Below, piece after piece: positions 51,501-57,115 of a DNA stretch of 57,115 nucleotides. The position numbers and the translations under genes are program-made. The stretch comes from Lolliginicoccus lacisalsi (GTDB lineage Bacteria > Actinomycetota > Actinomycetes > Mycobacteriales > Mycobacteriaceae): the NCBI RefSeq assembly GCF_014841105.1, contig NZ_JACYWE010000011.1, positions 1 through 57,115 of the forward strand, given 5' to 3'. How positions within the stretch are numbered: the first letter of the stretch is position 1; every line of letters starts with the position of its first letter. A model generated the notes under the pieces. The model saw only the letters and a program-made list of their open reading frames with translations, had not been told where the DNA came from and did no database searches.

Positions 51501-54500
51501 CCCGTCCGCACCGCGCTGTTCCGCCTCGCCGAGGACCAGCATGTGCTCGTGCTCGTCGTCCATCACATCGCGGCCGACGGTGAATCCCTCGCGCCACTCG
51601 CCCGGGACGTGATGATCGCCTACTCGGCACGTGCCGAGGACCACGAGCCCGGCTGGGCGCCGCTCGCCGTGCAGTACTCGGACTTCGCCGCGTGGCAGCG
51701 CGATCTCCTCGGCTCCGAGGATGATCCCGCGTCGCTGCTGTCCACCCAGATCGCGTACTGGCGCACGGCCCTGGCCGATCTGCCGGAGCTCATCGAGCTG
51801 CCCACCGACCGGCCGCGGCCGGCCGTGATGTCCCAGCGCGGTGCCCAGCATGAGCTCGCGCTCGACGCCGCGACGCAGCAGCGCATCATGGACCTCGCGC
51901 GCCGCCACAACGCCACCCCCTTCATGGTGGTGCATGCGGCGCTCGCAATCCTGTTGTCGCGGTTGTCCGGCGAGACCGACATCCCCATCGGCACCCCGGT
52001 GGCAGGACGTGGCGACCGCAAGCTCGACGACCTCGTCGGCATGTTCGTCAACACCCTCGTGCTGCGCACCGAGATCGCCTCGGGGCAGCGGTTCGTGGAC
52101 TTCCTCGACCAGGTGCGCCGCTCCGATATCGCCGCGTTCACCCACACCGATGTGCCGTTCGAGAAGCTTGTCGAGGCACTTGATCCGGCACGGTCACGGG
52201 CGCACGCGCCCCTGTTCCAGGTGCTGTTCACCTTCCAGAACAGCAGCTCGCCCCGGTTCGAGCTGCCAGGCCTCGCCGTGGAGCCGATCGAGGTGGACAC
52301 CCACACGGTGAAGTTCGACCTCGATATCGCGGTGATCCAGCAGTGGACGGACAACGTCGTCCCCGCCGGCATGCGGGTAGTGCTCACCTACGCCACCGAT
52401 CTGTTCGACGAATCGACCGTGGCCAGCTTCGGCACGCGCTTCGCCACGCTGCTCGGCAGTGTGCTCGAGGCACCCGAGGCAGCTATCCGCGACCAGCGCT
52501 GGATCGACGGCGCCGAGCTCGATCAGATGGCCACGCTCGGGCACGGCGACCGGCGGCCGGTGATGGAGGCCAGCCCGCTGCACCGGTTCCGCCAGCAGTG
52601 CGCCGCGACCCCTGACGCCGCCGCCATCCGCGACGGCGGCCTCGTCCTCACCTACCGGCAGCTCGACGCTGCTTCCACCCAGCTCGGCGAGGAACTCGCC
52701 CGCGCGGGCGCGGGACCGGACGATGTAGTGGCGCTGCTGCTGCCACGCTCCGCCCAGTGGGTCGTCGCGATGCTCGCCGCGTGGAAGACCGGGGCGGCCT
52801 ACGCGCCCATCGACCCGAAGTTCCCCGAGGACCGGCTCGCCGCGGTGCTCGCCGACACCCAGGCAAGGGTCGCTGTGGTCGCCGGCCCGGGCCCCTGGGA
52901 CACGCTCATGGCCGAGGGCACGGTCTTCACCCTCGACGAGCGCATCGCCGAGGCGCCCCCGGTCGCTACGGCGCTGCCCGATCGCTGGACCGAGGCAGGC
53001 GCGGGCGACCGCATCGGCTACGTCATCTCCACCTCTGGCTCCACCGGCAGGCCCAAGCCGACCCTGGTGCCAATGGCGGGGATCGCCAACACGCTCGAGT
53101 GGTACCTCGACGCTTCAGCGATCGACGCCGGCGATGGAGTGCTGATCGCCTCCTCGCCCGGCTTCGACCTGACCCAGAAGAATGTCTGGGCGGCGCTGTC
53201 CGCGGGCGCGACCATCGTCATCGCCGAGGACCCGTTCGACCCGGCGAGCATCCTGAGCTCCCTCACGGATGCCCCCGTCGCGCTGGCCAACATGTCGCCG
53301 AGCGCGTTCGAGGCCCTCGTCGAGACCGATGACACCCATGTCCTCGACAGCCTGCGCAGCGTGTTCCTCGGCGGCGAGGCGATCCGCCGCAAGCCGATCG
53401 CCGAGCTGCTCGCGGCAGGCGTGCGCTTCTACAACAGCTACGGGCCCACCGAGGCCTCCGATGTGGTCTCCTGGGCACCCGTGGAGCCTGGCGCGGACGG
53501 GACAGCTCCGATCGGCGAGCCCATCCCCAATATCGATCTGTTCGTCCTCGACGGTGACCTGCGGCCCGTGCCGCCGGGGGTGGGGGGCGAGCTGTATGTC
53601 GCCGGAATCGGCGTCGGGCGTGGCTACGGCGGGATGACCGCGCTCACCGCGCAGCGCTTCGTCGCGTGCCCGTTCGGCAAGCCGGGCGATCGCATGTACC
53701 GCACGGGCGATCTTGCCCGGTGGACCACCGAGGGGCAGCTCGAGTACCTGGGCCGCACGGACTTCCAGGTGAAGCTGCGCGGCTTCCGCATCGAGCTCGG
53801 CGAGATCGAAGCTGTCCTCGCCGCGGACCCAGCCATCAGCAAGGCGCACGTGCAGGTCTACCACGATGCCCACGCTGGCGATCAGCTCGTGGCCTACCTC
53901 GTGCCGGGCCCGGGCGCCGAGCCCGACCGGGACGGGCTGCGCGCTCATGCCTCGGCGAGCCTGCCGCCGTACATGGTCCCGGCAGCGATCGAGATGCTGG
54001 AGGAGTTCCCCCTCACGGCCAGCGGCAAGCTGGACCGCAGGCGGCTGCCTGTTCCGCAGCTCGCCGTTGCCGCCACCGGCGAGCATGTGGCGCCGACCAA
54101 TCCGGTAGAGGAAGCGATCGCCGCCGTCTTCGCCGAGGTCCTCGGTGTGCCGGAGGTGTCGATCACGGTGCCGTTCTTCGACCTCGGCGGGAACTCGCTG
54201 GGCGCGATGAAGGCCGTGGCCCGCATCAGCAGCAGCCTCGGCGTGAAGGTGCGCCTGCAGGACCTGTTCGACGCGCCCACCGTCGCCGAGCTCGCGGTCC
54301 GCGTCGAGCACGCCCATGCCCTGCGGGGCGGCGGGCACCCGCTCGCTCCCGCTGATCCGCGGCCCGAGCACATCCCGCTGTCCCTCGCGCAGCAGCGCAT
54401 GTGGCTGATCAACCGGTTCGACCCCGCATCGTCGGCCTACAACATGCCGTTGATCGTGCGGCTCTCCGGCGAGCTGGATGCCGCCGCGCTCGCCCAGGCC

Positions 54501-57007: not shown

Positions 57008-57115
57008 ATGGCTTCTCCGACAGTTTCTCGCCTCAGGCTCCTGCCTCAGTTGTTGGCGGCGGCGGTGGAGGTGGATCCGTCGGGCCCGGCTTTGGTGCTG
57101 GGGGACCGGGTGGTG
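57008..57115 (+). CDS. Start of a second NRPS gene, adenylation domain N-terminus (partial)
   Basis: ATG at 57008 opens a frame of 36 codons running off the window. The residues LPQLLAAAVEVDPSGPALV followed by LGDRVV match the usual beginning of an NRPS adenylation domain, and compare with [19 protein letters not shown] at the start of A4 in the preceding protein. An AGGGAT site lies nine bases upstream. It therefore seems to begin with A rather than C, and would supply the adenylation activity missing from module 6 of the upstream protein. Only 36 residues are visible, so a mis-set start or a stand-alone A protein remain possible. Confidence 0.65.
   Translation, partial: MASPTVSRLRLLPQLLAAAVEVDPSGPALVLGDRVV

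Follow-up and report, generated by a model that had tools for sequence, protein, structure and literature searches.

The NRPS gene that closes this stretch of DNA raises a question of both architecture and function: why should an enzyme end in an intact condensation (C) domain followed by an adenylation (A) core that has lost its catalytic motifs, and how might it work with a next gene that opens directly with an A domain? The window analysed here is the whole stretch of 57,115 nucleotides and comprises an entire contig. It ends at 57115, 293 bases past the stop codon of the upstream NRPS gene (N1) and 107 bases into the next gene (N2), so that N2 had to be read in relatives. The core genes rpoB, rpoC, fusA and tuf share the window with the NRPS (10825-36064), and tuf lies directly upstream of N1. 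The best explanation overall, which we hold to be on balance probable, is that the sixth A domain (A6) was duplicated, that the two copies were divided between subunits, and that the first copy (the relic, A*) caps C6 and docks N2.

The joint between N1 and N2

The features of N1, of the joint and of the start of N2 are as follows.

36582..56822, + strand: N1, an NRPS of 6746 aa encoded by one open reading frame, the last complete gene of the window; domain order C1-A1-T1-E1 / C2-A2-T2 / C3-insert-A3-T3 / C4-A4-T4 / C5-A5-T5 / C6-pseudoA
45792..46178, + strand: C3/A3 insert (aa 3071-3199), in frame, a second relic at a C/A junction (omega 0.049)
54372..55709, + strand: C6, an intact condensation domain with HHIIGDG (Pfam and motif)
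55710..55793, + strand: linker of 28 residues between C6 and the relic (ASSIVQGG..., by alignment)
55794..56819, + strand: the relic, a pseudo-A core of 342 aa ending at the Acore/hinge boundary
55881..55931, + strand: kept A1 segment of 17 residues, its NLDxRSSRLAR invariant in nine of nine relics
56157..56225, + strand: kept segment in which 6531, P6537, Y6541-R6543 and R6548 are invariant in nine of nine relics
56232..56291, + strand: destroyed ATP loop (A3), 20 residues where an intact A domain has the motif (by alignment)
56643..56765, + strand: relic of A6-A7 ending MHRSG, the Asp of YRTGD being lost (by alignment)
56820..56822, + strand: TAG stop codon of N1
56823..57008, + strand: intergenic stretch of 186 bases between the N1 stop and the N2 ATG
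57009..57115, + strand: start of N2, opening directly with an A domain (A6) and cut by the contig end

E domains in N1 were assigned from partial C-family matches after T domains (E1 after T1). C6 covers positions 3-455 of the 456 in the Pfam Condensation profile (E 2.6e-91), and its HHIIGDG, read directly in the translation, fits HHxxxDG. The distance from C to A at C6/relic is longer than in four of five outgroup giants; the fifth, G019, exceeds N1. The ATG at 57009 opens a frame reading MASPTVSRLRLLPQLLAAAVEVDPSGPALVLGDRVV, the window itself showing the start of A6 only. Neither a consensus sigma-70 promoter nor a terminator-like site was found in 56700-57115.

Adenylation domains are recognised by the motifs SGSTG..K (A3), FDxS (A4), YGPTE (A5) and YRTGD (A7), by the hinge, and by an Asub with a catalytic Lys. 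Motif losses in the relic were scored by alignment with five intact A domains of these enzymes and five A6 domains: A3, A4, A5 and the Asp of A7 are missing, and A8-A10 are absent. Judged by its ATP loop, FDxS, YGPTE, YRTGD and hinge/Asub Lys, the relic does not qualify as a functional NRPS adenylation domain. By descent it is an adenylation-core homologue, as seen in its match to Pfam AMP-binding (E 1.6e-19, with a best stretch of profile positions 3-85 only and a weak extra stretch at 344-382) and in its clade with A6, described below. A local A-domain HMM is matched at positions 2-236 and 303-391 of 494, and since the match ends at 391 the relic stops at the boundary of core and hinge. The Pfam, HMM and alignment results thus bear out the description in an earlier note of an intact C domain followed by about 340 residues of A-like sequence that lacks the ATP loop, GPTE and YRTGD and ends before A8. 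The same note placed an A-starting gene 185 bases further on; the A start stands, and the gap is 186 bases.

The relic shares its form with eight others, from relatives and from a paralogous NRPS (N1') treated below. The missing region, mainly A4-A5, is the same in all those compared. N1 relics have 342-345 residues and N1' relics about 295-298, some 45 fewer. Their ends fall 14-22 residues beyond the A7-equivalent Gly, the nine stops lying within eight residues of one another, and the reading frame is kept open in nine of nine. The chance of an open frame over the relic is about 0.003 (20,000 mononucleotide shuffles, 72% GC), which is weak evidence alone.

The joint in relatives and the origin of the relic

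When 41 genomes were searched, two congeners matched the relic with a coverage of 98% or more (72% and 46% identity). The congeners of the window's genome (G000) that carry it are G003, taken as Lolliginicoccus levis Y7R2, and G002, taken as Hoyosella rhizosphaerae CGMCC 1.15478; a further congener, G001, has an unsplit enzyme. A relic profile was then run against 401 genomes of the family, with the best five candidates per genome scored, and gave at least 269 bits in at least six: G000, G002, G003 and three genomes of a second genus (G042, G067, G083). The next-ranked rows among the matches listed reach at most 241 bits, and those inspected (second genus, G001, G003) are intact A domains. The C6-relic/A-start joint is therefore found in six genomes of two genera, the window's included. 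Plasmid records matching the relic numbered 469, none of them over 80% or more of it.

In G003 the N2 ATG lies 185 bases past the N1 stop, and N2 (a 5044-aa frame) reads A-T / C-A-T-E / C-A-T-E / C-A-T with a TE-like end, the TE being read by eye. The G002 contig stops shortly past the start of the A domain that follows N1. In the three genomes of the second genus N1 measures 6757-6761 aa and terminates in the relic, with an A-starting N2 behind it. The joint of G067 sits on a 4,738,809-base contig, which we take to be the chromosome of Hoyosella (Amycolicicoccus) subflava, and 116 bases separate the N1 stop from the N2 ATG. N1 and N2 are adjacent and in the same order in full in G003, G042, G067 and G083, and up to the contig end in G000 and G002. 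In all four relatives that are readable throughout the next gene opens A-T-C, so that a C domain without a working A lies on one protein and A-T on another. This is the A-T-(C...) order that the earlier note had anticipated; the outcomes it had set against its own reading, a next gene that brings a C domain of its own or has nothing to do with NRPSs, were not encountered in the relatives, and neither was a frameshift restoring a full A domain. An assembly or sequencing error hiding such a domain can practically be dismissed: the contig does end soon after the stop, but an equivalent relic is present in five other assemblies, with A6 intact behind it in the four readable throughout. A frameshift or assembly artefact was rejected on the same conservation.

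N2 is the more variable partner. Its number of modules (4, 4, 4 and 5 in the four genomes read through) and the places of its epimerases differ among G003, G042, G067 and G083, with frames of 4564-5630 aa, while N1 keeps to about 6750 aa. Contigs C11 and C12 of the window's genome, like C8 and C9 of G002, look like N2 middles and break at A domains. Near-identical A domains have probably collapsed in the assembly of these N2-like pieces, and N2 in both genomes may be longer than in G003, or may be two genes. N2 is not the sole A-starting NRPS gene: contig C18 has a small frame of 1184 aa, at about 51-54 kb, that likewise starts with A and includes a C domain.

G001 and five outgroup genera (G008, G016, G019, G020, G021) carry instead a single chain of 11190-11944 aa with nine A domains, and C6-A6-T6 is intact in all six unsplit enzymes examined. 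The gene tuf lies upstream of the NRPS in 9 of the 12 stretches scanned (7/7 from the two genera, plus G016 and G020). The scanned stretches of G008, G019 and G021 showed no tuf, and for these three the correspondence of the giants rests on layout and the C6 tree. In that tree the second genus falls outside the window's genus and the C6 of G001 inside it (support 90/86), a position that suggests, tentatively, that G001 is a re-fused form. The long C6-A6 linker of G001 resembles the N2 leader weakly. As a separate observation, an MbtH-like pattern is present in the stretches of outgroups G020, G021, G016 and G019 and was not seen in the window or in the scanned stretches of G001-G003 and G008; G000-G003 have one MbtH gene each, on a different contig from the giant NRPS.

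Trees of the A domains point to where the relic came from. Two odd rows, G020_A6 and G021_A8, were dropped from both relic trees, which were built solely on alignment columns well populated in the relics. In the tree of 46 rows the relics and the A6 domains of the two genera form one clade (100/99) and the nine relics group together (100/98), while the four outgroup A6 domains included fall apart from them. Since the relic/A6 clade stands apart from outgroup A6, the relic duplicates A6 rather than a distant A domain. These sequences support an ancestral enzyme of one polypeptide and nine modules in which A6 would have been duplicated in the lineage of the window's genus and the second genus, the gene then breaking between the copies and the first copy losing catalysis. 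A simpler course, in which the original A6 lost its Asub and no duplication took place, was rejected, as the relic has an intact A6 of its own clade next to it. A common origin of the relics is likewise supported by their sequences. Trees forced to exclude the N1' relics gave p-AU 0.042 (N1 relics with both A6) and 0.0502 (with G001 A6), and 0.196 with all nine relics; the N1 and N1' relics may have been truncated independently, and their long branches may attract one another in the trees.

Selection on the relic and a second NRPS that ends alike

A codon model applied to G000/G003 gave omega 0.128 for the relic (dN 0.17, dS 1.36, 2dlnL 137 against omega=1). Its first 96 residues gave 0.072, the next 60 gave 0.079 and the remainder 0.166-0.172, compared with 0.064 for C6 and 0.028-0.049 for C3, A3, C5, A5, T5 and the module 3 insert in the same pair. 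For G067/G083, at dS 0.13, omega was 0.27 for the relic (2dlnL 24) and 0.033 for C6. Values were left out where dS was saturated (G000/G002, N1 against N1', most of G067/G042 and the 28-residue linker). The sequence comparisons support long-term purifying selection on the relic, with weaker constraint than in working domains: its omega is 2-8 times that of C6, and it evolves faster than every other N1 domain tested, which we counted against the best explanation. With six genomes of two genera carrying the relic under such selection, the earlier suggestion that the remnant is maintained rather than freshly broken stands.

These rates are also what a slowly decaying scar might produce, that is, a non-functional tail which is tolerated while N1 and N2 meet through weak C6-A6 contacts. 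The raised omega relative to C6, the lost catalytic motifs, the still shorter N1' relics and the low-confidence fold predicted for the relic alone (AlphaFold, five sequences, mean pLDDT 55, likewise counted against the best explanation) would all suit such a tail. We consider it unlikely, however, as the pairs free of dS saturation give omega well below 1 (0.128 and 0.27), the nine relics, drawn from two genera, are open with near-identical ends and invariant blocks, and any upstream stop could have removed a useless tail of 340 aa.

Forty-one positions are invariant in the nine relics, and 35 of these do not vary among the five A6 domains compared either, including NLDxRSSRLAR minus its Asn and the K...P...DR...R segment. 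At position 6541 all the relics have Tyr, the A6 domains Phe or Leu. The invariant positions thus mark a kept core more than a new site, with little sign of a newly evolved surface, and the overlap of 35/41 was counted against the best explanation. The same overlap with working A6 domains would be in keeping with a relic that only stabilises C6 by filling the C-A platform, N2 docking elsewhere, as would the conservation of the N-terminal 156 residues, which lie beside the C-A linker in the chain and are the most constrained, omega for G000/G003 being 0.072-0.079 there and about 0.17 in the remainder of the relic. Such a restricted role seems to us improbable, since it leaves unexplained how N2 finds N1, and no separate docking element was recognised by inspection.

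The relic of N1 is not the only one of its kind. G003 and G002 encode N1' in frames of 6607 and 6701 aa (G003:C1:332392-352212; G002:C1:310740-330842), which end C6'-relic' and have the layout of N1 except that no C3/A3 insert was detected. Contig C3 of the window's genome carries the end of N1'; the start of the gene is probably on C24 and C23, which share residues at their edge, and size and order suggest that C23 continues into C3. No NRPS lies directly behind N1', a convergent ORF and a stand-alone C domain occupying that place, and no N1'-type gene was seen in the C-domain listing of the unsplit G001. Omega is 0.065-0.109 in the three N1' domains tested and 0.20 in relic', values from which N1' is judged to be under purifying selection. 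The C3/A3 insert of N1 aligns with an A-start fragment of relatives (G001), after which it weakly resembles a C-domain end (3 bits), and is conserved like the working domains. Weak A-start matches (2-21 bits) also occur between C and A in module 3 of four, and in module 5 of all five, of the outgroup giants. The earlier interpretation is thus partly borne out: sound on maintenance and on the A-starting gene, and a conjecture still in the C-A interface or docking surface it proposed, it had not foreseen the paralogy of relic and A6, the second NRPS that ends alike or the unsplit congener.

The role of the relic and known systems

Under the best explanation, N1 ends in C6-A*, the first copy, and N2 starts with the working copy, A6-T6. 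A* has lost its ATP and amino-acid sites and retains part of the sequence of an adenylation core. It would fill the place that the A core of the same module normally takes beside C6, keeping C6 in shape, and would offer N2 a docking surface that lets T6, loaded by A6 inside N2, reach the acceptor side of C6. On the simplest reading both the capping of C6 and a part in the docking of N2 would fall to A*, and N1', ending C6'-A*', may likewise feed a downstream subunit.

A natural split between C and A probably needs some docking device: when an NRPS was cut artificially in the C-A linker, in the part of PMC8362031 available, no peptide could be detected from the zipper-free version, and the yield was low when subunit 2 alone carried a zipper. 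No docking peptide of known type was recognised by inspection at the N1 and N2 ends, where COM, PAX and beta-hairpin elements were considered. Inspection also found only 14-22 residues past the A7 relic in N1 and about ten ahead of the first A helix in N2, and A* would be the obvious extra element. Two further results were counted against the best explanation: AlphaFold placed C6 and relic (nine sequences, pTM 0.51) in an arrangement unlike that of C-A modules of solved structure, with an rmsd of about 20 A across the two domains, and the fused G001 has no relic.

N1 and N2 might instead no longer cooperate, C6-A* being a release terminus for N1 and A6-T6 the start of a separate peptide on N2. 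N2 does open like an initiation module, N1' ends in C6'-A*' with no NRPS directly behind it, and an A-starting subunit can initiate alone in the engineered splits of PMC8362031, as far as its available text describes them. Nevertheless, both halves are one chain in six of the six unsplit relatives examined (G001 and the five outgroups), and the split genomes keep them adjacent and in the same order; this reading is very unlikely in our judgement. The duplicated and docking A* could be taken further, in that a pseudo-A duplicated from the A domain of its partner would be a new kind of intersubunit docking element, with N1 and N1' as alternative chain donors to an N2 of variable module number; we put this forward as possible but doubtful. 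NRPS engineers use synthetic zippers to rejoin enzymes cut in the C-A linker; in N1/N2 a cut of this kind arose by evolution, with a dead A core retained at the joint. Should the relic dock N2, or maintain activity in a C domain parted from its A domain, nature would have supplied a component for split NRPSs. With split, fused (G001 and five outgroup genera) and paralogous (N1') enzymes to compare, it can be tested directly whether an A-core partner is required by a C domain.

Working assembly lines that contain a truncated or dead A domain are already known, as are synthetic NRPSs split between C and A. A conserved pseudo-A that ends a subunit and faces its own paralogue was not found described in the openly licensed literature searched, and may still be published. 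The portions seen of PMC5550956, which compares clusters including that of A. subflavus, and of PMC8097286 do not mention the N1/N2 split. In the fungal siderophore synthetases SidD and Nps6, according to the accessible part of PMC10192304, a truncated and inactive A domain is likewise kept in a working line, its amino acid coming from another A domain. That dA, however, belongs to module 2 of one synthetase and lacks about 290 N-terminal residues, whereas our relic keeps its N-terminal part, lacks the C-terminal part and ends a subunit; by the fungal-type criterion it is not a dA. Fusaoctaxin synthesis also combines a truncated A with a two-NRPS system, but this A lies in the first module of the fungal NRPS5 and its function is doubted in the paper (PMC6563249, seen in part), while the relic is the last domain of an upstream subunit.

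Trans-complemented A domains are treated in section 4.1 of PMC8949500. Albicidin, ramoplanin, enduracidin and SyrE/SyrB1 have C and a working A-T on separate proteins, as N1/N2 do, and the albicidin line retains its in-line A domain in a dead form. In these trans-complemented systems, however, the partner is a stand-alone A-T, whereas in N2 the A-T opens a multimodular subunit and the dead copy is its paralogue. The X domain of glycopeptide synthetases, with an A-like stretch near the TE, shows that relics of lost modules can be kept with a recruiting role (PMC8949500), although that recruiting relic is a C domain that recruits P450s and the relic of N1 is an A core. The Type S NRPSs, as described in the part of PMC8362031 seen, consist of two working subunits produced by a cut between C and A; their split is artificial and docked by zippers, whereas the N1/N2 split is natural and has the relic in that place. 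Finally, the COM and PAX docking domains also sit at NRPS subunit ends but, in the section of PMC9113145 available, are short regions serving E/C and PCP/C, respectively, whereas the relic is a pseudo-domain of about 340 aa at a C/A joint.
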